Shown: one piece after another, positions 1-21,249 of the stretch | Layout: each line of letters opens with the position of its first letter | How positions within the stretch are numbered: position 1 is the first letter of the stretch | DNA from: a virus | Reading direction: 5' to 3' (one strand) | Virus record (IMG/VR): IMGVR_UViG_3300017788_000181 | Span: 1 to 23,253 of that record | DNA: 23,253 bases | Translations under genes and position numbers: made by a program | Notes under the pieces: generated by a model | What the model saw: only the letters and a program-made list of their open reading frames with translations | Databases searched by the model: none | Told to the model about the DNA's origin: nothing

Positions 1-750
1 ATTTTCATCGTTAGCTGGATCTTGAGGTGGTATGGGTCTGCCAGGTGTACTGAAACCGAAAACACTACTTATAGGATCACGCTGACTGCTACTTGTTATT
101 GGACCACGAACTTCATCTCCATCTAGCCCAGAAACTAATAATTGTATAGTTTTGTATATGTGAAGAGGTTTAGGTACTTCCTTTGTTGGCTTTGAATAGC
201 CTGCTGGTAAGTTTTCATTCCATTCACTAACTGGATACTTTTTATTTGAATTCAGTGTTAAACCAGACTCTTGTATGCTTACAGGATCTATTAACCTAAC
301 ATCAACTGCGCCAATGCCAGGTGTCATGTAAATACTGGCACTTTTGTTTATACAAGCAAACCAATAACCAGCGACTTCTCCGTCCACAAAACAACAAAGA
401 ACTTGATTGCCTATATCAGGAGGAATCATATGGAAACCATAGGTCTGAGTTGTATTCAAGAAGGTATTCTGATTTTGTCCTGCTCTTGTAAATTCTGTAT
501 TTTGTTTTCCAGATGTTTGACCAAAAAATGGACTAGCGTAGGACACCAATTTCCAGTTAGAAGGATTGTCAGGATCTGGTCCACCTAATTGTGTTATGTA
601 TACCTGTAATCTTCCGGTACGAGTAGTTGTATCTATCTGTTTTACAACTCCAACATATATTCCAGACTGTTTTGGTAATTCTGCTCCAGTTTGATCTATG
701 AAACTAGGCAGCCTTGTTCCTAGATATGGTCTACTCAATGATGACGACAC
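1..750 (-). CDS. gp5: Baseplate hub/spike protein gp5, N-terminal part (runs off left edge)
   Basis: An open minus-strand frame of 250 codons begins at a GTG (748-750) and reaches the window edge without a stop. Near the N-terminus, 'GIYVGVVKQIDTTTRTGRLQ' followed by strand-rich sequence matches the oligosaccharide-binding (OB) fold that opens T4 gp5, the cell-puncturing spike at the centre of the baseplate. A later stretch around 'GFHMIPPDIGNQVLC' followed by 'DGEVAGYWFACI' also fits this OB domain, where a conserved 'P.vG..Vlv.F..Gd...GyW.G' pattern is usual. The ATG 24 bases upstream is closed by an in-frame TAA, so GTG is the best start; a weak AGGA lies upstream. The gene follows the hub gene, as expected for the gp27-gp5 pair. 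Whether a lysozyme domain and beta-helix follow cannot be seen, because the C-terminus is outside the window. Confidence 0.8.
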   Translation of the reverse strand, partial: MSSSLSRPYLGTRLPSFIDQTGAELPKQSGIYVGVVKQIDTTTRTGRLQVYITQLGGPDPDNPSNWKLVSYASPFFGQTSGKQNTEFTRAGQNQNTFLNTTQTYGFHMIPPDIGNQVLCCFVDGEVAGYWFACINKSASIYMTPGIGAVDVRLIDPVSIQESGLTLNSNKKYPVSEWNENLPAGYSKPTKEVPKPLHIYKTIQLLVSGLDGDEVRGPITSSSQRDPISSVFGFSTPGRPIPPQDPANDEN

Positions 751-760
751 TTTTTATATC

Positions 761-859
761 CTATATTCCATTTCCAGGCACTGAATTCCAACCTACATCA
801 GTTATTGTAGGTGCTGGCGTCGGCAATGCCTGAGTTACTGTTTGTCTAACAATACTTAG
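761..859 (-). other. In-frame 32-codon extension behind the TGA stop of the hub gene
   Basis: Directly after the TGA that ends the large hub gene, the same frame stays open for 32 sense codons and ends at TAG (761-763). The peptide reads as normal coding sequence: it starts LSIVRQ, has a Pro/Thr-rich middle (PTPAPT) and ends VPGNGI. The TGA is followed by CTA. If the protein really ends at the TAG, the gap to the gp5 start is 10 bases, in line with the tight spacing of this operon; with the TGA it is 109 bases. Readthrough, a recent nonsense mutation or a sequencing error could explain this. Confidence 0.45.
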
Positions 860-3619
860 TCATTCTTGTATTCCACCTAAAGTTCTTTGAACTGAAGTTC
901 CTAGATTTTCTAATTTTCCTACCAGTCTTCCTGCTTGAGGTATGCCAGTCAATACATTTAAATCGTGCCCTAGAATATTTCTGCCGCCTAATCCGAAATT
1001 ATTCAACAGTAACGAATTAACTTTATTAACGTCAGAAAAAAAATCATTAGATGCTGCGTTAGTAGCAGCGGCAATTCTAGAATTTATTTGAACTCCAGTA
1101 TTGACTTCTTGTGCTACCTGTTGAACTTGTCGCTGTCTTAATTCACTCACGGGTAACCCAACTTGATCAAATAACACTTTAGCCATTCTCAGATTTTGTT
1201 CAAATTTTCCTCTAACGAATGTTGAATCTACCGTTATTAACTTATATACTCCACTAAAATTACTGTATCCTATATTAGACGCCTCGATAACAGCACTCTC
1301 TGGTCCTAATATATCATTTGCTTTTATTTCGGCTAAACCTTTTTCTTCATCGTAATCAACAGGGCTCAAAAAATTTACAAATATGTACAATTCTCCAGTG
1401 TCCATATATAAACTTTTATTTGGAGTTAATGCGGGATTTTCTCCTGCCCTAGGTCTACTATAAAATACGTCGTCCTGTTTTATGAATAGTGGATCACCTA
1501 TTATTTTCAGATCCAACTCAATCATATCTCCCCTAGCATCTAAAAACAAGGAATTTTTTAGATCAGCCGAGGCAATATTTTTTTGTATATTTCCTCCCTC
1601 GATGCTAGAAGATTTGTTATCTCCCGCTATAGGTGCGACTCCTGGAGTTGCCACTGGATCTCCTAACGTAGATACTCCGGCAGTAGTTTGACCATTTCTA
1701 GTAGGATCTGCTGCGTTTCCAGCCGCATTTAATCCAGCACCAGTAGATCCCTGTACACTTTTGTTTAACCCAGCAGTTACTGCCATCAGATAAAGAGTGT
1801 TGAAATTTATATTCCAATCTATGATATCACGATTTCTTCCCGTGAATAGATAGTCATACTTTTTAACATATCCAGGAACTCTACCTCTGGGTCCGTATGG
1901 GTATTTTGAAGAGATCTTAAATGTCTTAACACTGAATCTTATCACTTCAGGTACATATCTACCTTGAATACTATCCCATTGACCTATTTTCATCGTTGGT
2001 ACTATTTTGAACCATTTCAACGGTTTACCCAATTTGTCAACTATTTCTGCTACATTTGAACCAGATTGTGCTTTACTTTGTAGATCTAATGTAACTTGAA
2101 CCTGTTGTGGTAAATAGATTTGATCAAGTATATAGCTACTTTGACGAACAATAAAATCTATTAATTGTTCTATGCTAGTGCCAGCGGGTATATTAATCAC
2201 TCCAGAACTCAATGCTAACGAACTTCCCTTAGCAGCACCACCCGCTGATTGAGCGTCTGTTCTAGCATCGGATCTGACTGTACCCGCTGATGCTACATTA
2301 GTTGGTTGTGGTCCAGAATACAGTGTCGCATTAGCAATTTCTTCATCAAATTCTATTTCGTAGCGTGGTGCATGATTTATATCACCACGTTCTTTTAATG
2401 TCGCATAATAATCATTGAATGCCGCACAAATACTGTTTACATCCAACACTGTATCTTTTAGACTAGCCAGTCTAGTAGTCGCACTAGATAGTCGTGTATC
2501 AACATCATCTAAAGATGTAAAAAAACTACTACTATCCACATTAGTAGTACTACTAGATTGAATTATATCCTCACGTTGTTTTCGTAATTGAGAGATTTCT
2601 CTTTCTGTATTTTTTTGATTTTGTAGCAAACTTGAAAAACTGTTGACGTTTTCACCGTTATTTGTTCTATAATTAAATATTGAAGCAACAGTTGACCCTT
2701 GAATCTTTGTCGTGTACGGCAAAGAAACATTTATTTGACTGTAAGCACCATGATTATATGGCACTGCCTCAATTCTATATTCGGCACCACTTTGGCGAAC
2801 GCTTGTTTCTATATTAACAATTTTTATTGGTATAATTTTGGTTAAATCTTTAATCTTTTCAGGCTTTGAATCTTCAGTCTCTTTATATCCAAAAAAATCT
2901 ATTTGTAAAACATAAGGCACCTGTATATATGAACCAGGCGCTCTAACATAACCAGTGTTTATTTCATTCGCCGCTGCTATCATTCTATTGATAAGCGTAA
3001 AGCCGTTTGGCTCAATAATGGTAAAAGAACACTCGATTACGTTAGTGTTTCTATTTCTCATATTTGGCGTAATAACTGTCTGCATTTTAAAATCTTCAAA
3101 GTAAAAATCTTCTTTGAAGTTTCTATTACGCTTAAAGTCAGTATCGTTATATCTGCCAGCGCCACTTATTAGAACGTTTTCCGGAACATAAGGCGATGGT
3201 GTTGTGTTTTCAAAATTGTTATTAACTATTCTGTTATATCCCTCAATAGAGAGCATATGCAAACTTAAATTATACGTATACGACGCATATTCATATAGAG
3301 GGTTTTCAATTGGACGTTGTGGTTCAAAGAATCCAGAAACTTCATATCTTCCGGGGCCAGTAAAACCTTCACGGCCCAAACTACCGTATACTCTATTTGA
3401 TTCTGCGACTAGGGCTTCGTCAGCGAAAGTTTCGTCATTTGTATTGCTCTGAGCGCCAATATTATTTTGAACATTAATAGAGCCTGATTGAATATCAGCA
3501 ACACGTTGTCTATCTTCTGGAGTTAATTTAAAATCTCCTGATAAATCACCTAAACTGTCTCCCAACGGAGTATTCAACGGTGTCACTGCAAAAGGTATTA
3601 AACTGCCATCAACACTCAT
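860..3619 (-). CDS. Large baseplate hub protein (gp27 / gpD-like), 919 aa
   Basis: This very long protein lies between gp53 and gp5, the place where a gp27-type hub protein is expected. Its N-terminal half carries beta-rich hub-like sequence, including 'ITPNMRNRNTNVIECSFTI', 'YVLQIDFFGYKET' and 'YRIEAVPYNHGAYS'. Around residues 335-395 a charged stretch (QKNTEREISQLRKQRED and following) could form a coiled coil. A linker rich in Ala, Gly and Ser lies near the middle. The C-terminal part has 'SGVYKLITVDSTFVRGKFEQ' followed by 'NLRMAKV', typical of the last strands of gp27/gpD-like hub domains. T4 gp27 is only about 390 residues, so this is either a fused or a greatly expanded hub. The start ATG is 4 bases downstream of the gp53 stop. 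The gp27 assignment rests on order and general character rather than a diagnostic motif. Confidence 0.6.
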   Translation of the reverse strand: MSVDGSLIPFAVTPLNTPLGDSLGDLSGDFKLTPEDRQRVADIQSGSINVQNNIGAQSNTNDETFADEALVAESNRVYGSLGREGFTGPGRYEVSGFFEPQRPIENPLYEYASYTYNLSLHMLSIEGYNRIVNNNFENTTPSPYVPENVLISGAGRYNDTDFKRNRNFKEDFYFEDFKMQTVITPNMRNRNTNVIECSFTIIEPNGFTLINRMIAAANEINTGYVRAPGSYIQVPYVLQIDFFGYKETEDSKPEKIKDLTKIIPIKIVNIETSVRQSGAEYRIEAVPYNHGAYSQINVSLPYTTKIQGSTVASIFNYRTNNGENVNSFSSLLQNQKNTEREISQLRKQREDIIQSSSTTNVDSSSFFTSLDDVDTRLSSATTRLASLKDTVLDVNSICAAFNDYYATLKERGDINHAPRYEIEFDEEIANATLYSGPQPTNVASAGTVRSDARTDAQSAGGAAKGSSLALSSGVINIPAGTSIEQLIDFIVRQSSYILDQIYLPQQVQVTLDLQSKAQSGSNVAEIVDKLGKPLKWFKIVPTMKIGQWDSIQGRYVPEVIRFSVKTFKISSKYPYGPRGRVPGYVKKYDYLFTGRNRDIIDWNINFNTLYLMAVTAGLNKSVQGSTGAGLNAAGNAADPTRNGQTTAGVSTLGDPVATPGVAPIAGDNKSSSIEGGNIQKNIASADLKNSLFLDARGDMIELDLKIIGDPLFIKQDDVFYSRPRAGENPALTPNKSLYMDTGELYIFVNFLSPVDYDEEKGLAEIKANDILGPESAVIEASNIGYSNFSGVYKLITVDSTFVRGKFEQNLRMAKVLFDQVGLPVSELRQRQVQQVAQEVNTGVQINSRIAAATNAASNDFFSDVNKVNSLLLNNFGLGGRNILGHDLNVLTGIPQAGRLVGKLENLGTSVQRTLGGIQE

Positions 3620-8686: not shown

Positions 8687-8690
8687 GTTG

Positions 8691-9107
8691 GTGACTTGGA
8701 TATTTGAAGAAAAAATTATTGAAACACTACCAGAAGACGTTGTTGGTTTCGTATATATGATAACCAACAAGTTAACTGGACGAAAATATATAGGCAAAAA
8801 ATTATCTAAATTTAAAAAAATCAGGTTAAAAACATCAAGGCTCAAAAACGGCACTAAAAAGAAATCTAAAATAAGATATGAAATTGATAGTGACTGGCAA
8901 ACTTATTATGGCTCAAACACGGTATTATCAGAAGAAGTAAAAACAACAGGTTCAGAAAATTTTCATAGGCAAATATTAAGGTATTGTTATTCAAAGAACG
9001 AACTAAACTACTGGGAAGCGAAGTATCAATTTGATTACGGTGTTTTACTCAGTGGTGATTGGTACAACGAATGGATATCGGTCAAAGTTCGTAAATTGAA
9101 GATTTAA
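8691..9107 (+). CDS. GIY-YIG family endonuclease (free-standing, homing type)
   Basis: A small protein (138 aa from the GTG at 8691) built around one GIY-YIG nuclease domain. The first motif reads GFVY (residues 19-22) and the second KYIGKK (32-37). The likely metal-binding glutamate is E109 in 'YWEAKYQFD', a common ending for this phage subfamily. A basic stretch (residues 36-62) and 'SDWQTYYGSNT' lie between. No separate DNA-binding domain is visible, as in other short phage members. Such genes often sit beside conserved phage genes and spread by cutting alleles that lack them; here the neighbour is gp46. TTG at 8688 is an alternative start. There is no Shine-Dalgarno sequence, and a TATAAATA ends four bases before the GTG. 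Confidence 0.8.
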   Translation: MTWIFEEKIIETLPEDVVGFVYMITNKLTGRKYIGKKLSKFKKIRLKTSRLKNGTKKKSKIRYEIDSDWQTYYGSNTVLSEEVKTTGSENFHRQILRYCYSKNELNYWEAKYQFDYGVLLSGDWYNEWISVKVRKLKI

Positions 9108-9787: not shown

Positions 9788-10006
9788 TCAAACAAATAGA
9801 TGACCAGTCTCGTTGGTTCTCTCTATGTTTTCCTTGATGATATCGTTAATGATATCACGATCTTGATATCCCATCTCAAAACCTTGGTCTATATTGACTC
9901 CACCTCGCATGTACCAGACTAGTTTGTATATGTATTTTCGTAGTGCTTTTGACTCCCGGTCGTAATCATCAATTAGTTTGATTACTTCCTCATTGGAAAG
10001 AGTCAA
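9788..10006 (-). CDS. Small conserved phage protein downstream of gp26 (possible baseplate/tape-measure accessory)
   Basis: A 72-residue, mostly helical protein that starts 5 bases after the gp26-like stop, so it belongs to the same minus-strand unit. The core 'YKLVWYMRGGVNIDQGFEMG' followed by 'RDIINDIIKENIERTNETG' resembles small proteins that I recall as a conserved companion of gp26 in aquatic T4-like phages. Its function is not established to my knowledge; a chaperone or assembly role for the hub or tape measure is only a guess from position. The start is TTG (10004-10006), giving MTLSNEEV; the nearby ATG is out of frame. No clear Shine-Dalgarno sequence is present. Confidence 0.65.
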   Translation of the reverse strand: MTLSNEEVIKLIDDYDRESKALRKYIYKLVWYMRGGVNIDQGFEMGYQDRDIINDIIKENIERTNETGHLFV

Positions 10007-10906: not shown

Positions 10907-13012
10907 ATGGCAGCACCTGATTCAGAAATAGCTCGATTTGCGGCAGCAATGGGATTAACTACAGCACAGGCTGAAGCAACTCTTAGATCATTGGCTAACT
11001 TAGCAAGGTCAACGGATACTACCACCAATGCCCAGAATGTTCAAACTCAGTCTATAAATAATCTTACTGCTACCCAACAGCGTTATATTTCTACTATTAA
11101 TGGTGCCATTGGTGTTGCTGGAAATTTAAATAGTACTTTGTTAAGTATGGCTGACAGCATGGCAGCAAGTACTAGTATTTTCTCACAGATAAAGCCAGCA
11201 TTATCTTTTCTTTCTACAACTGCTAGTACGATAGGTAAATATATTCCTGACGTATTGACCGGAATAGGAACAGGTCTAGGAGCATTTTTTGGTGGACCAG
11301 GTGGCGCGGCCGTTGGTAATAGACTTGGGTCATTGGTTGGCGGGGTTGTTGGAGGTGCTTTTGGTGAGTTAAATACAGGAGCAAAGGCTGTAGCTGAGTT
11401 GTACTTAGATCAAGGCGAAAAAGTAATGAATGCCTTTAATATGTTAAGTTCAACCGGTGTAACATTCGGTGCCAGTTTACAAAACATGTCCAGAGTTGTT
11501 AACAGTACAGGTGTTCCGCTTGAAATGTTAGCAAAAATCGCACAACAAAATGCTGAAAATCTTGCTGTTTTAGGTGGTGGAGTGAGTGGTGCTCTTGAAC
11601 GTGTGGCAAAAGCGGCTAGAAATGATCTAGGTCCGCAATTGGTAACATTGTACGGTGGCTTTACTAATCTAGGTGATGAATTGGCTGATTATTTGGCTAT
11701 GCAGCAACGCATAGGAGTACAAGAAAATTTATTGAGCAGTGAAAATATTGAAGGTACCAGAAATTATCTTTATGTTTTGAAAAATATATCTGATTTAACT
11801 GGTAAAAATGCTAAACAATTAAAAAATGAAATAGAGCAACGAAACAGAAATGTAGCAGCACAAAATTTCATGAACTCATTGGACGCAAAAGGCCGTGAAC
11901 AATATCTTGCGATGATGGCTCAAATTCCAAAAGGTATGGAAGGTGTTATGCAGGATATTATTATGGCTGCTGCTAGAGGACAAGAAGCGATAAGTCCAGC
12001 CTATAGACAACTTAGTGTCATGATGCCGGAAGTAACGCAAGCGATGACTCGTATGGCAAGCGGGCTAGGTAAAAGTAATGAAGAATTTGTAAAAATAATG
12101 GATGAATCTGGAAAAAGTTTAGTTAAAAGTGGTCAGATGTATTCAAAGGAATATGATCCTTTGTTTTTCTTGAAAGAACAAGGTGTGCTTTCGGCTAGTA
12201 TTATTGAAACAGCAAATACAATTCTTACGGATATTAACAGTAACGCGGGACGACTTCAAAAACTGGGAGAAACCCTTGGTAAACTATTAGAAGAAACTAA
12301 AAATTTAAAGGATAAACCTACTGATTTCGCAACGAGTGTGGCGGCAGTTGCTAACGCTCAGGCTAAATTAGGAGTATCTCTTAACAATTTAATGACAGGT
12401 ACAGATAAAGTTGAGGGCAAATTTTCCGAATTTGCCAATGTAGCTGGCAAATTAGTGAGTACAACTCAGAGTTATGTGGATGGATTAGACAGTATTGTTG
12501 CTAAAATTTTAGGTTTAAAACCAGAGTTGGAGAAAAAGGACGAACGCGGACGAGGCGGATATGAATCCTCGCAGAGACTTAGATCCGCTATTCAAACGGA
12601 GGAATTAGCACTACGTGAGTTTGAATTACAAAAAATTAAAGCTGAGAGAGAATTGGCCATAGAACAATCTAGAGGGAATATCGGAAGCGTAGATATATTA
12701 AAAAAACAAATTTCTGATTTAGACACGTATTTAACTGAATCTAGAGAAAAATTGCAGGAATTGAAAGAAAAACGAGATCAGTTACAAAATTCAACGCAGG
12801 GAAGTACTGGTAATAATACAACTGGTTCAACCACCAGCAATGTTGTAAGTAGTGTTTCAACTATACCCAATGACTCTTCTGATAGTGAATCTAAATCATA
12901 TACTATGTTTGAACGTGCCCTACAAGAACAAAACACTGTATTGACGGATTTAGCACAAAGTGTAATCAGTCAAGGCGAGCAAATTAGAAGAGCAGTAGAT
13001 AGAATGGCATAA
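10907..13012 (+). CDS. Probable tail tape-measure protein (gp29-like)
   Basis: A 701-residue, mainly helical protein. The N-terminal 90 residues are Ala/Thr/Gln-rich. Around residues 115-155 lies a hydrophobic Gly/Ala-rich block, including 'GTGLGAFFGGPGGAAVGNRL' and 'GSLVGGVVGGAFGE', of the kind found in tape-measure proteins that form pores in the host membrane. A long helical region follows, then a strongly charged coiled-coil-like segment near residues 560-630 and a Ser/Thr-rich tail. T4 gp29 has 590 residues. Position between gp26 and the portal fits a tail or hub gene, but no diagnostic motif proves it; another internal virion protein is possible. The ATG at 10907 has no Shine-Dalgarno sequence, and a -10-like TATACT ends 5 bases before it. 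Confidence 0.5.
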   Translation: MAAPDSEIARFAAAMGLTTAQAEATLRSLANLARSTDTTTNAQNVQTQSINNLTATQQRYISTINGAIGVAGNLNSTLLSMADSMAASTSIFSQIKPALSFLSTTASTIGKYIPDVLTGIGTGLGAFFGGPGGAAVGNRLGSLVGGVVGGAFGELNTGAKAVAELYLDQGEKVMNAFNMLSSTGVTFGASLQNMSRVVNSTGVPLEMLAKIAQQNAENLAVLGGGVSGALERVAKAARNDLGPQLVTLYGGFTNLGDELADYLAMQQRIGVQENLLSSENIEGTRNYLYVLKNISDLTGKNAKQLKNEIEQRNRNVAAQNFMNSLDAKGREQYLAMMAQIPKGMEGVMQDIIMAAARGQEAISPAYRQLSVMMPEVTQAMTRMASGLGKSNEEFVKIMDESGKSLVKSGQMYSKEYDPLFFLKEQGVLSASIIETANTILTDINSNAGRLQKLGETLGKLLEETKNLKDKPTDFATSVAAVANAQAKLGVSLNNLMTGTDKVEGKFSEFANVAGKLVSTTQSYVDGLDSIVAKILGLKPELEKKDERGRGGYESSQRLRSAIQTEELALREFELQKIKAERELAIEQSRGNIGSVDILKKQISDLDTYLTESREKLQELKEKRDQLQNSTQGSTGNNTTGSTTSNVVSSVSTIPNDSSDSESKSYTMFERALQEQNTVLTDLAQSVISQGEQIRRAVDRMA

Positions 13013-13030: not shown

Positions 13031-16012
13031 ATGACTTGGAAAAAATATTTTCGTGTAGCAAATCTATCGGGTTCAGTAAGTCCGATAAATGGCTCAAGTG
13101 GCAATCACTTTACTTATAGAAACTATCAAAGCAATCTGCCTGATGTTTACATTGGTCATCCAAATCGTATTGAGCGATACAATCAGTACGAACAGATGGA
13201 CATGGACAGTGAAGTAAATGCCGCCCTGGATATTTTGAGTGAATTCAGTACGCAAATCAACAAAGAAAATAGTTCAGCATTTCAATTCGTTTGGAAAGAA
13301 AAGCCAACCGACAACGAAATAAAAATTATTAAAGAACAACTAAATCAGTGGGTAAGTTTAAACGAACTAAACAAACGCATATTCAAAATTTTCAGAAACA
13401 CAATCAAGTACGGCGATCAAGTTTTTATTAGAGATCCAGAAACATTCAAGTTGTTCTGGGTTGAAATGAGTAAAGTTGTTAAAGTAATTGTAAATGAGGC
13501 CGAGGGTAAAAAGCCAGAGCAATACATCGTCAAAGAACTTGCGCCAAATTTTGAAAATTTAACTGCTACAGCAATAAACAGTAGTGACGTTAGCGTTAAT
13601 CATCCACAGGTCGGTGGACCAAATGGTGCCTATATACAACCAAAGTCACCATATAGCGGTGGTAGCAGATTTAGTAAAGCACAAAACGAACAGGCGATAA
13701 ATGCTGAACATATAGTACATCTCAGTTTAACTGAAGGTTTAGATTTCAGTTGGCCGTTTGGTAATAGTGTACTTGAAAACGTATTCAAAGTTTTCAAGCA
13801 AAAAGAATTACTAGAAGATGCCATCATCATCTACCGTGTACAGCGTGCTCCAGAGCGTAGAATTTTCTATATAGACGTAGGTAACATGCCGAGCCATATG
13901 GCTATGGCATTCGTTGAACGTGTTAAAAATGAAGTACATCAGCGTAGGATACCAACACAAACTGGTGGCGGTCAAAACATGATGGACGCAACCTATAATC
14001 CATTGTGTCTTGATTTGGGAACAGTAATACCTTTACTTGATGGCAGAAAATTAACGTTAGAGGAAATAATTGAAGAATTCAATGAAGGTAAAGAAAACTG
14101 GACTTATAGTTGTGATCCAGATACAGGTAAAATAGTTCCTGGTGTTATTAATTGGGCGGGTATAACTAGGAAAAATACTGAGGTTCTGGAGTTAACATTT
14201 GATAATGGACAGACATTGATTTGTACTCCTGATCATAAAATACCTGTGTTCGGTAAAGGATTTGTGGAAGCAAAGGATATTACTCCAGAAGATAGTTTGA
14301 TTGCTTTTAATGTAAAAAACAAAAAGATATCAAATAATGGTGGTGAATATCAGCAAGTATGGGACCATGAGAAAAAAGAGTGGGTCTGGACACATCGTAT
14401 GATTGGTGAGTTTTTCAGAGATTTAGGAAAACATCAAGAATTTACATATTTGCCAGAAAATGTTACTTCTGTAAAAAATGTAATCCATCACAGAAATTAC
14501 GATAGATTTAATAATGATCCTAGAAATTTAACATACATGAATAAGCAAGATCATATATTGTATCATGCTTCAATGAAAAAAGATTTTTGGGAAAATATTT
14601 CTGATGAATATCGTGCCCAGATGATTGGTAAGATTTCAGAAACTACCAAAAATAACTGGAAAAACATGAGCGAAGAGCAAAGGCAAATTGCTTTATGGAA
14701 ATTACATTCAGCCAGAGAACATGGCATTTGGCTGAGACAAAATGATCAAAATACCAAGGATCAATATAAAGAAAAAATGCGTGCTGCCAGAAAGAAATAT
14801 TTTTCTGAACATCCAGAAGCATTAGATCAAGCAATTAAGAATTGCGAGAACAGAGTAAAAATTAAAAATCAACCTCTGAATGTAACATTTGACATGTTAC
14901 AAATAGTAGCAAAATATGTAAAAGATGGAGTAAAAAATAAAAATAAGGTTATAGAACTTTGTGATAATAATCAAGATTTATTAAAATTAGTAAAAGAAAA
15001 TAACTCCGAGTCCTTTGACTATAAGAATTCACAGTGTAAAATAGATTTTACTAAATTTGGTTATAATAAATTAGATCATTTGATTTCTAAGTTTGGATAT
15101 ACAAATTGGAAAAAATTTGTAAAAGAAATAGATAATTTTAATCACCGAGTAGTTAAAATAACAAAAATTCAAAATAGAGACACAGGTACTATAACTATTG
15201 ATGGGCTTGAAAGGTGGCATAACTATCATACATTTGCTATTGATAGTGGTATATTCGTTAAGAACTCTACAAATGAAGATTATTTCTTCCCACAAACCGC
15301 TGATGGTCGTGGTAGTAAGGTTGATACTCTTCAAGGTGGTACTAATCTAGGTGAAATTACAGACTTACACTTCTTCACTAATAAACTATTTCGTGGATTG
15401 AGAATTCCAGCCAGTTATCTACCAACTGGGTTGGACGATGGCACTAGTAATCCAAACACATTCAGTGATGGAAGAGTTGGAACGGCCCTAATACAGGAGT
15501 GGCGTTTTAATCAATACTGTATCAGATTACAGCGTTCAGTTGCTGAAAAATTAGATCAAGAGTTCAAGATGTTTATGCGTTGGCGTGGCATAAACATTGA
15601 TGGCTCATTATTTGAACTTCAGTTCAACGAGCCACAGAACTTTGCCAGTTATCGTCAAGCAGAAGTAGACAGTGCTCGTATTACCAGTTTCACACAGTTG
15701 GAAGCATATCCATACTTAAGTAAACGATTCTTGATGTCTAGATTCCTAGGATTAACTGAAGAAGAAATGTCCGAGAATGAAAAGTTATGGGAACAAGAAC
15801 AAGGGAACGCTGATGCTGCTAAACCAGATGCTGTTGGACTAAGAAGTGTGGGTATTAGTCCAGGTGGACTGGATATGGGAATTGAGGCAGCAGAAATGGC
15901 AGGAGCACCACCGCCAGAAGGTGGCGAAGGTGAAGGAGCAGCACCGCCAGGTGGCGGTGGCGGAGCAGTACCGCCATTACCACCACCAGGTCCAGTAGCA
16001 CCAGCAATGTGA
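13031..16012 (+). CDS. gp20: Portal vertex protein gp20, interrupted by an intein
   Basis: gp20 forms the dodecameric portal through which DNA enters the head and on which head assembly starts. The host part shows T4 portal motifs: 'NRIERYNQYEQMDMDSEVNA', 'ERRIFYIDVGNMPSHMA', 'VERVKNEVHQRR', then 'MMDATYNPL' | intein | 'STNEDYFFPQTADGRGSKV' and 'GGTNLGEITDLHFFTNKLFR'. Removing residues 326-745 leaves about 573 residues, close to T4 gp20 (524). The intein lies exactly inside the conserved 'YNPxS..(E/D)DYFFP' block. The C-terminus is a Pro/Gly-rich tail ('GAAPPGGGGGAVPPLPPPGP') that T4 does not have. Splicing is required to make a working portal. A small head gene follows, overlapping only through the shared late promoter region. 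Confidence 0.95.
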   Translation: MTWKKYFRVANLSGSVSPINGSSGNHFTYRNYQSNLPDVYIGHPNRIERYNQYEQMDMDSEVNAALDILSEFSTQINKENSSAFQFVWKEKPTDNEIKIIKEQLNQWVSLNELNKRIFKIFRNTIKYGDQVFIRDPETFKLFWVEMSKVVKVIVNEAEGKKPEQYIVKELAPNFENLTATAINSSDVSVNHPQVGGPNGAYIQPKSPYSGGSRFSKAQNEQAINAEHIVHLSLTEGLDFSWPFGNSVLENVFKVFKQKELLEDAIIIYRVQRAPERRIFYIDVGNMPSHMAMAFVERVKNEVHQRRIPTQTGGGQNMMDATYNPLCLDLGTVIPLLDGRKLTLEEIIEEFNEGKENWTYSCDPDTGKIVPGVINWAGITRKNTEVLELTFDNGQTLICTPDHKIPVFGKGFVEAKDITPEDSLIAFNVKNKKISNNGGEYQQVWDHEKKEWVWTHRMIGEFFRDLGKHQEFTYLPENVTSVKNVIHHRNYDRFNNDPRNLTYMNKQDHILYHASMKKDFWENISDEYRAQMIGKISETTKNNWKNMSEEQRQIALWKLHSAREHGIWLRQNDQNTKDQYKEKMRAARKKYFSEHPEALDQAIKNCENRVKIKNQPLNVTFDMLQIVAKYVKDGVKNKNKVIELCDNNQDLLKLVKENNSESFDYKNSQCKIDFTKFGYNKLDHLISKFGYTNWKKFVKEIDNFNHRVVKITKIQNRDTGTITIDGLERWHNYHTFAIDSGIFVKNSTNEDYFFPQTADGRGSKVDTLQGGTNLGEITDLHFFTNKLFRGLRIPASYLPTGLDDGTSNPNTFSDGRVGTALIQEWRFNQYCIRLQRSVAEKLDQEFKMFMRWRGINIDGSLFELQFNEPQNFASYRQAEVDSARITSFTQLEAYPYLSKRFLMSRFLGLTEEEMSENEKLWEQEQGNADAAKPDAVGLRSVGISPGGLDMGIEAAEMAGAPPPEGGEGEGAAPPGGGGGAVPPLPPPGPVAPAM
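14006..15265 (+). mobile_element. Intein with HNH endonuclease in the portal gene (420 aa)
   Basis: The element starts at Cys326 ('CLDLGTVIPLLDGRKLTLEE') after YNPL and ends at Asn745 before Ser746, the expected nucleophiles for splicing. Block B is TPDH (residues 399-402). The C-terminal blocks read 'HNYHTFAIDSGIFVKN', so the usual penultimate His is Lys. Between the splicing halves lies an HNH nuclease: 'VIHHRNYDRFNNDPRNL' (His pair at 486-487) followed by 'DHILYH', then a helical basic region that probably binds DNA. The inserted DNA is more A-rich than the portal gene around it, as expected of a transferred element. The endonuclease looks intact, so the intein may still be mobile. Confidence 0.92.
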
Positions 16013-16361: not shown

Positions 16362-17411
16362 ATGTCAAAATACGAAAAGTTAATTGAATATATTGTTAAC
16401 GAGCAAGAAGAAAAAGCCCGTGAACTATTTCACCAACTCGTTGTTGAGCGTTCACGCCAGATTTATGAGTCATTAATTGACGAAGAAGATTTGGCTGAAA
16501 TCGGTGGAGACGAAGTTGAAGACTTAGTTGACGAAATCACTGCCGATGAAGATGGAATGTTAGAGGCAGAAGACGAAGACATGGACATGGACGATGCTGA
16601 AGACGATATGGATGACGCAGATATGGACATGGACGACGCTGAAGGCGACATGGACAACGCTGAAGACGATATGGATGACGCAGAGATGGACATGGACGAC
16701 GCTGAAGGTGACATGGATATGGACATGGACGACGAAGGCGGTGAAGAAGGTTTAGAAGACCGTGTTATGGACCTAGAAGATTCCCTGGAAGAACTAAAGC
16801 GCGAATTTGAAGAACTAATGGGCGATCAAGGCGGCGAAGATATGGGCGGAGACATGGATGCCGACATGGGCGACGAAGAAATGATGCCGGAGACCTTGGA
16901 AGTAGTACCGAATATGGATCATCACAGCCCAAAGAACCCAAGCGGGCCAATGGAATCCAAAATGAAGAAAGAAGAAATGCTCAAGGATAAAAAAGCCAAA
17001 GCCAAAAAGAAAATGACTGAGGCTGAGTGGATTCGTGAATATGTCGAAAAGATTGGCGAACCATATCCTGGTAACAACTCTGATACGCACGAAGTTGGCG
17101 CTGGTGGTTCTGTAACTCTTAACAAGAAGAGCATCGTTGCTGGCAAGAACGACATGGGCGGTACTACGCAAAATATCGCTCGCGGTGGTTCAGAGGCAGA
17201 TCCAAAAGGAACTCCAAGCAACAAGCCAAGTGGTTTGTTAAAGAAGGGTGGAGATCTAATCGGTAAGGTACAGAATAGTCCTGGTGCTAATGCTGGCAAA
17301 ACTGGGTACAAGACTAGTGCTGGTAAAGAGTATTCAAAGGCTAACGGCAAAGAAGGTCAGACCACTTCTGGCTCAATGAGCGTAGACAAGAAGAGTTTAC
17401 TAGGACACTAA
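16362..17411 (+). CDS. Acidic prohead core protein (gp68-like)
   Basis: The first gene of the core/protease/scaffold/capsid run. Residues 1-60 ('YEKLIEYIVNEQEEKARELF', 'HQLVVERSRQIYESLIDEED') form a conserved-looking helical domain. Residues 60-130 are an extreme Asp/Glu/Met low-complexity block with a 21-residue tandem repeat. A short helix follows ('LEDRVMDLEDSLEELKREFE'), then a Lys-rich stretch and a Gly/Lys/Ser-rich tail with 'KKSIVAGKNDMGG'. The overall plan matches what I recall as prohead core proteins of cyanophage-type T4-likes; T4 gp68 is much shorter (141 aa). It probably fills the prohead and is cleaved by gp21. Good Shine-Dalgarno sequence (AGGA) at 16351. Confidence 0.7.
   Translation: MSKYEKLIEYIVNEQEEKARELFHQLVVERSRQIYESLIDEEDLAEIGGDEVEDLVDEITADEDGMLEAEDEDMDMDDAEDDMDDADMDMDDAEGDMDNAEDDMDDAEMDMDDAEGDMDMDMDDEGGEEGLEDRVMDLEDSLEELKREFEELMGDQGGEDMGGDMDADMGDEEMMPETLEVVPNMDHHSPKNPSGPMESKMKKEEMLKDKKAKAKKKMTEAEWIREYVEKIGEPYPGNNSDTHEVGAGGSVTLNKKSIVAGKNDMGGTTQNIARGGSEADPKGTPSNKPSGLLKKGGDLIGKVQNSPGANAGKTGYKTSAGKEYSKANGKEGQTTSGSMSVDKKSLLGH
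16596..16721 (+). repeat. Two tandem copies of a 63-base coding repeat (acidic block)
   Basis: Copies at 16596-16658 and 16659-16721 agree at most positions, with differences mainly at the copy ends. They encode two 21-residue acidic units beginning AEDDMDDA. The repeat could expand or contract by slippage or recombination without breaking the frame. Confidence 0.8.
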
Positions 17412-17422
17412 AGAGATAAGCA

Positions 17423-18058
17423 ATGTTACTGCTACAAGAACATTTAAGTTTTGACGGCGCACGGATGGAGCTGATGACTGAATCGGCTCCAGACGGCAAA
17501 GGAAAAAATCTATACATGAAAGGCATTTTTGTACAAGGTGGTGTCAAGAATGCCAATCAACGTGTATATCCTGTTGATGAAATCGCTAAAGCCGTCGAGA
17601 GTGTTGGTAAGCAGATAAAGGGCGGCTATAGTGTTCTTGGTGAGTTAGATCACCCCGATGATTTGAAGATAAATCTTGATCGCGTATGTCACGTTATTAC
17701 TGATATGTGGATGGATGGTCCAAATGGCTACGGTAAGTTAAAAGTACTTAACACACCTATGGGTCAACTAGTTACAACTATGCTGGAATCTGGTGTAAAA
17801 CTAGGTGTTTCTAGTAGAGGCAGTGGTAACGTTAATGAAAGTACTGGACATGTAAGTGATTTTGATATTGTAACAGTTGATATAGTAGCCCAACCAAGCG
17901 CACCGAATGCATATCCTAAGCCAGTTTATGAAGGTCTAATGAACATGAGACATGGTCATAGAGTTTTAGAGATGACTAAGGATGCAAATGCCAATAAGAG
18001 AGTCCAAAAATATTTGGCAGAGGAAGTAAAACGCCTCATACAGGACTTAAAAATTTAA
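17423..18058 (+). CDS. gp21: Prohead core protease gp21
   Basis: The 211-residue protein equals T4 gp21 (212) in length. It is the serine protease that cleaves scaffold, core and capsid proteins during head maturation. Likely catalytic residues are His77 in 'LGELDHPDD' and Ser130 or Ser131 in 'KLGVSSRGSG', the positions conserved in herpesvirus-type and T4 prohead proteases. 'DFDIVTVDIVAQPSAPNA' is also typical. It sits between the core protein and gp22 in the standard T4 order, 11 bases after the preceding stop. It probably cleaves itself after activation. Confidence 0.92.
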   Translation: MLLLQEHLSFDGARMELMTESAPDGKGKNLYMKGIFVQGGVKNANQRVYPVDEIAKAVESVGKQIKGGYSVLGELDHPDDLKINLDRVCHVITDMWMDGPNGYGKLKVLNTPMGQLVTTMLESGVKLGVSSRGSGNVNESTGHVSDFDIVTVDIVAQPSAPNAYPKPVYEGLMNMRHGHRVLEMTKDANANKRVQKYLAEEVKRLIQDLKI

Positions 18059-20434: not shown

Positions 20435-20463
20435 TTGACATTCGTATAATAATAGTGTATTAT
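20435..20463 (+). promoter_or_regulatory. Sigma-70-like promoter for the HNH endonuclease gene
   Basis: TTGACA (20435-20440), a 17-base spacer, then TATTAT (20458-20463): a perfect -35 and a one-mismatch -10 at ideal spacing. It directly follows the gp23 terminator, so the gene can be transcribed by unmodified host polymerase, apart from the late capsid operon. Confidence 0.65.
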
Positions 20464-20477
20464 GTTGAATTAACAAA

Positions 20478-20485
20478 CATAAATA
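20478..20485 (+). promoter_or_regulatory. Late-type promoter (CATAAATA) at the HNH start codon
   Basis: CATAAATA ends five bases before the ATG at 20491, and the expected start six bases after the last A is that ATG itself. There is no Shine-Dalgarno sequence between. Confidence 0.45.
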
Positions 20486-20490
20486 CTAGC

Positions 20491-21249
20491 ATGAACAAAT
20501 ACGAAAAATGGTATAAAAATATCACAGATTCTGCGAAACACAGAATCACTGAAAATTACACGGAAAAACATCATATTCTGCCTAAAAGTATTGGAGGCTC
20601 AGATAGTGTCACGAATTTAGTGTATCTTACTGCTAGAGAGCATTTCATATGTCATTGGTTATTGACTAAGATATATACTGAAGGTGAAGCGCATTGGAAA
20701 ATGATTAACGCATTTAGAATGATGCGAGCGGAAAATCCTAAGCAAAAAAGATATGCTACGAAGATAACTGCTAGAGTGTATTCTAATTTGAAAGAAGAAT
20801 ATTCTGTATTACAAAGTGAACGATATAAAGGCACAGGAAATGGCTTTTACGGCAAAAAACATTCAGAAGAAGTTAAGAACAGAATAAGCGAAGCAAATAA
20901 GGGTGATAAAAATGCCTCTAAACGTCCAGAAACTAAAAAGAAAATTGCAGAATCAAAAATTGGTAAAAAGAGGGATCCCTTCGATAATACATGGAGACTC
21001 AATCTTTCTAAAGCATCATCTGGTGAAAATAACGGAATGTATGGCAAATCACATTCTGATGAAACTAAACAAAAACAGCGTGAACGTGCTATTGATAGAA
21101 AACAAAGTAATGAAACTATACAAAAAAAGGCCGACGCTATACGAGGCATGAAGAGAGAAAAGAAATTATGCCCACATTGCGAGAAACTAGTGGCTGTGAA
21201 TGGATATGCTAGATGGCATGGTGATAATTGCAAGTCTAAAGATAAATAA
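20491..21249 (+). CDS. Free-standing HNH homing endonuclease with NUMOD3-like repeats
   Basis: The N-terminal HNH domain reads 'TEKHHILPKSIGGSDSVTNL' followed by 'VYLTAREHFICHWLL'. Two DNA-binding repeats of NUMOD3 type follow ('NGFYGKKHSEEVKNRISEAN' and 'NNGMYGKSHSDETKQKQRE'). The protein ends in a zinc-finger-like CPHC...WH...NC module. This layout is typical of phage homing endonucleases that invade next to or within conserved genes; here the neighbour is the capsid gene. From the ATG at 20491 it has 252 residues. A GTG at 20455 is in frame, but it lies upstream of the -10 box, so I reject it. The gene has its own early promoter and terminator, an autonomous cassette between two structural units. 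It is A-rich compared with gp23. Confidence 0.88.
   Translation: MNKYEKWYKNITDSAKHRITENYTEKHHILPKSIGGSDSVTNLVYLTAREHFICHWLLTKIYTEGEAHWKMINAFRMMRAENPKQKRYATKITARVYSNLKEEYSVLQSERYKGTGNGFYGKKHSEEVKNRISEANKGDKNASKRPETKKKIAESKIGKKRDPFDNTWRLNLSKASSGENNGMYGKSHSDETKQKQRERAIDRKQSNETIQKKADAIRGMKREKKLCPHCEKLVAVNGYARWHGDNCKSKDK
21241..21248 (+). promoter_or_regulatory. Late-type motif (GATAAATA) overlapping the HNH stop
   Basis: GATAAATA overlaps the last codons of the HNH gene. The only feature downstream is the terminator at 21286-21309, so if active it would yield an RNA of roughly 55 bases. It may be chance, given the AT-rich context. Confidence 0.25.

Follow-up and report, generated by a model that had tools for sequence, protein, structure and literature searches.

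A private in-frame TGA near the end of the baseplate hub gene of a T4-like phage contig is most likely a recent nonsense mutation or sequence error

Why does the baseplate hub gene of a T4-like phage stop at a TGA 33 codons ahead of the normal end of its frame, when the codons behind the stop remain readable? The window—the whole stretch of DNA analyzed, 23,253 bases—is the complete virus sequence IMGVR_UViG_3300017788_000181 from an environmental collection. On its minus strand, the hub open reading frame (ORF) as interrupted (positions 860 to 3619) comprises 919 codons and the TGA (862-860), which is followed by a C in the hexamer TGACTA. Behind it lie 32 sense codons (859-764, minus strand), a TAG (763-761), and, after a gap of 10 bases, the GTG start (at 750) of a gp5-like baseplate hub/tail lysozyme ORF (1-750, minus strand) that is truncated by the end of the contig. 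An earlier note on this DNA had described the arrangement in just these coordinates and had raised two readings of it: a leaky stop with programmed readthrough or, more simply, a recent nonsense mutation. The TAG and the GA after it resemble the Shine-Dalgarno sequence AGGA and may be a putative ribosome-binding site for gp5. Only 860 bases separate the TGA from the end of the contig, which is cut off there inside gp5, and read depth may be low in this region.

What kind of protein is interrupted? The contig carries a T4-like gene set, with a portal (gp20), a prohead protease, and gp23 recognized by Pfam and a gp25-like wedge protein, a late sigma factor, an SbcCD-like nuclease, and the gp5-like lysozyme matched in PHROGs. 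The 919-residue protein itself has a single PHROG match (11190, virion structural protein). Its predicted structure, a moderate-quality model with a mean pLDDT of 60.8, was matched by Foldseek to hub proteins of phages and injection systems (e.g., a P1 baseplate chain at E = 1.9e-5 and T4 gp27-gp5 entries at E = 0.003-0.008). A search of Protein Data Bank (PDB) sequences with the hub profile returned 0 sequences at E up to 1, which a shared fold does not require. Because the model matches hub proteins of contractile tails (P1 and T4 gp27-gp5 entries among others), "hub," with a gp27-like fold, is a fair name. Residues 818-952, which include the stop and the extension, were modeled with pLDDT below 50, and the extension therefore probably lies within a disordered tail.

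Is the extension more than an accidental open frame? By length alone it is unremarkable: with a stop-triplet frequency of 0.058 on the minus strand, a run of 32 open codons has a chance probability of about 0.15, and open runs of 29 and 26 codons also follow stops among the 20 ORFs listed. A first scan of viral sequences gave 54 loci with hub relatives, and a second, with a four-sequence profile, gave the best 80 of 105 stretches, some of them on the same contigs as in the first. The tail could be aligned in three lineages: G001/G002, L002/G003, and L005-L007. Contigs G001 and G002 are identical in the stretch printed and were treated as a single lineage; so were L005-L007, which leaves three independent lines. 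The nearest, G001/G002, has 80% amino acid identity, and the other two have about 60% and 55%. Among named phage records, blastn of positions 1-1600 found no relative and tblastn gave only partial matches, in 13 records, all of which fall short of the tail; tblastn against cellular genomes found no relative.

In all three lineages with an alignable tail (3/3), a sense codon stands at the TGA site. The hub gene of G001 and G002 is a single open frame without an inner stop (947 codons in G001) and has a glycine codon at the site, while the L002/G003 and L005-L007 lineages are open there, with an asparagine in the alignment. The frame ends at TAG in the L002 and L005 lineages, as in the window, and at TAA in L003. 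Compared with G001, 24 of the 32 residues of the extension are identical, as opposed to 18 of 33 over the codons that immediately precede the stop. Of the 24 base differences, 4 are at first, 4 at second, and 16 at third codon positions (dN 0.165, dS 0.94, dN/dS 0.18). They change 8 amino acids, whereas random placement of the same 24 differences changed a mean of 13.9, never as few as 8 in 5,000 trials, and created a stop in 65% of trials. Trp 944 (numbered in the read-through frame) and Gly 949 are invariant in 4/4 sequences, and the extension past the TGA has no visible decay (i.e., no further stop and no frameshift). The extension thus keeps its frame, its length, and 24 of its 32 residues in G001, with few amino acid changes, which is more than chance would give. 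By this comparison the extension is genuine conserved coding sequence. Because the tail is conserved, open, and under purifying selection in the relatives, the extension would have been the usual hub C-terminus until recently. The earlier note's reading of these codons as part of the hub frame is borne out: relatives replace the TGA with a sense codon and conserve the codons downstream, rather than ending at the same TGA with unconserved codons behind it.

The hub gene is heterogeneous over its length. Between the window (860-3619, minus strand) and G001, dS is 0.015 in the first 100 codons and 0.17 in the next 100, and mostly about 1-2 thereafter. Because dS is so uneven along the gene, a mosaic origin by recombination is suggested.

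How private is the TGA? Run against the viral collection with any base allowed at the first position of the codon, a nucleotide pattern spanning the site recovered only the G001 and G002 contigs, both stop-free, and the tail as a protein query recovered the same two. We found no second sequence with a TGA at this site among the relatives searched, in collections that may lack the closest kin of the window. The TGA thus appears to be new in this contig, where it would truncate a conserved C-terminal tail. Among the relatives, 88 distinct ends of the hub gene, drawn from about 120 loci after excluding exact duplicates and cut ends, have TAA in 79 cases, TAG in 6, and TGA in 3. Directly past the stop codon, the window and G001 share the bases CTAAGT; because G001 has them without a stop, the leaky-looking context is older than the stop and inherited from the sense version. 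A tblastn comparison of the 20 other window ORFs, gp5 included, with pieces of G001 and G003 revealed no second stop-type lesion.

The window otherwise differs from G001/G003 in a portal intein, one ORF of low identity, and a gene without a true counterpart. In the portal gene (13031-16012, plus strand), residues 333-716 match an intein-splicing domain (Pfam PF14890); the G001 and G003 portals lack the insert, which covers about residues 340-745. The ORF at 10907-13012 (plus strand, 701 amino acids) is 39% identical to its G001 counterpart, with neighbors at 90% or more, and has no Pfam match; it is perhaps a fast-changing tail protein. A NUMOD3/HNH-type homing endonuclease gene (20455-21249, plus strand) directly follows gp23; G001 has no matching gene at that place and only a weak 33% match elsewhere. 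A 349-amino acid ORF also gave several blastn matches to G001 that overlap at 16572-16721 (plus strand), which suggests an internal repeat in that ORF.

What, then, is the TGA? Because the relatives read through at that place, it is very probably an ordinary nonsense mutation of recent origin in the sampled phage, or a base-calling or assembly error, and not a stop selected as a recoding site; we infer a recent origin and no programmed role for it. A glycine-type sense codon would have become TGA by a single-codon nonsense lesion, or would appear so by error, and the true gene end would be the TAG 33 codons on. Should the lesion be real, termination at residue 919 would leave most hub chains without the C-terminal tail, which is modeled at low confidence but conserved, while a near-cognate tRNA may carry a small basal fraction past the UGA. 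Such an event in a conserved phage structural gene has two marks, a single stop in a frame that relatives keep open and intact, conserved codons downstream; both are present here, and we saw no difference. A literature search on G-to-T sequencing errors found nothing, and we make no claim as to the type of error. Two observations count against a nonsense mutation or error: the extension is undecayed, and a stable predicted RNA fold is present only in the lineage with the TGA.

Could the TGA instead be a site of programmed readthrough? In this reading, a lineage-specific UGA-C with an RNA structure 3' of it would set a ratio of short to long hub, as with the coat and A1 proteins of Q-beta. We consider this unlikely. 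The stop is a UGA with C at +4, and of the properties expected of a readthrough site, conservation of the extension as coding sequence is seen here (24/32 residues identical, dN/dS 0.18). Conservation of the stop itself is not: the three alignable lineages have a sense codon, no second TGA-bearing sequence turned up among the relatives searched, and the UGA-C context came from the sense version. Of what the earlier note proposed, the extension is therefore real, while an unconserved TGA in a context that predates it supports the note's nonsense alternative. The note had also held that UGA-C terminates weakly in bacteria. UGA is indeed the stop most frequently read through, and +4U lowers readthrough (PMC5289835); the +4C effect given there, however, was measured in yeast, and for Escherichia coli the same text reports that +4A favors misreading as Trp and that UGA-C is the RF2 frameshift site, so that the note's statement has backing there only in part.

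The known cases of UGA readthrough resemble this locus in part. In Q-beta, A1 is made by readthrough of a UGA as Trp about 1 time in 15, and, as here, the UGA lies in a virion protein gene and is followed by an open in-frame extension (PMC8067240). In Q-beta, however, the coat gene normally terminates at this UGA, whereas at the hub locus the nearest relative carries a sense codon in place of the UGA, which occurs in one contig only. In E. coli K-12, the UGA extension products (nudL, pheL) depend on the weak RF2 of that strain (PMC5373646). Such low-level readthrough would predict a slight basal extension product here as well, but it is unprogrammed and depends on the RF2 and RF3 of the host.

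Does the RNA behind the stop speak for recoding? The predicted structure (854-774, minus strand) starts 6 bases past the TGA and consists of a small hairpin (854-836) and a long stem (833-774). For the 93-base stretch beginning at the TGA, the predicted folding energy is -29.8 kcal/mol, compared with -18 in dinucleotide shuffles (z -3.9; -4.2 with 400 shuffles). Among synonymous versions of the sequence, 3,000 of each kind, equal stability was reached by only 1.4% of those that follow the codon use of the contig and 0.6% of those that permute the sequence's own codons. The fold is missing from G001 (z -0.3) and G003 (z -1.0) and thus accompanies the TGA lineage. It ranks, however, only 7th of 1,169 coding windows of 93 bases (60 shuffles; z -3.85, with 6 windows reaching -3.89). 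The length of 93 nucleotides was an unplanned first choice on which the result depends: with lengths of 80, 99, and 110 bases, z was -1.1, -3.3, and -3.0, respectively. No Rfam family matched positions 700-950. Once one allows for how many windows were compared and for the freely chosen length, the signal is a mild one, and the predicted fold makes a weak candidate for a stimulator of readthrough; its role is doubtful, and it is the sole result that favors programming. The two strongest predicted folds among the coding windows are at gene starts (17423-17600 and 8688-8810, plus strand; z about -5). If programmed readthrough were true all the same, a recoding site would have been born from a glycine codon in one step in a large DNA phage, with a newly formed 3' RNA stem helping to make two forms of the hub, one of them ending in a conserved C-terminal docking tail that the other lacks.

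Might the phage have shortened its hub adaptively? The tail would then be dispensable, and the protein would now end at residue 919. The C-terminal ends of hub proteins do differ strongly among distant relatives, and residues 818-952 are modeled at very low confidence. At the divergence examined here, however, the tail is under purifying selection, with Trp 944 kept in 4/4 sequences, and we regard adaptive shortening as very unlikely.

Alternatively, UGA could encode glycine in the phage or its host (code 25, as in SR1/Gracilibacteria) and thus be no stop at all, as the glycine in the nearest relative might suggest. We rejected this reading, which is highly improbable, on the TGA stops that the window and G001 have in common, at the ends of gp25, the sigma factor gene, the ORF at 9788-10006, and the portal gene. 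Read as sense, the gp25 frame closes 4 codons past its TGA, and the portal TGA is directly followed by TAA; no other in-frame TGA was seen inside genes conserved in G001, and the window has no tRNA gene. (The TGA end of the SbcC gene is not shared, G001 stopping one codon earlier.) TGA is by these signs an ordinary working stop elsewhere in this contig, which makes an altered code unneeded. Selenocysteine at the TGA was rejected as well: Rfam gave no match to a SECIS-like element, and the residue in the relative is Gly rather than Cys.

By far the simplest explanation of the TGA is thus a nonsense mutation of recent date or a sequence error. The hub gene carries a caution: when a stop is private to a single contig, it is no evidence of recoding before the relatives have been checked, even if its context looks leaky.
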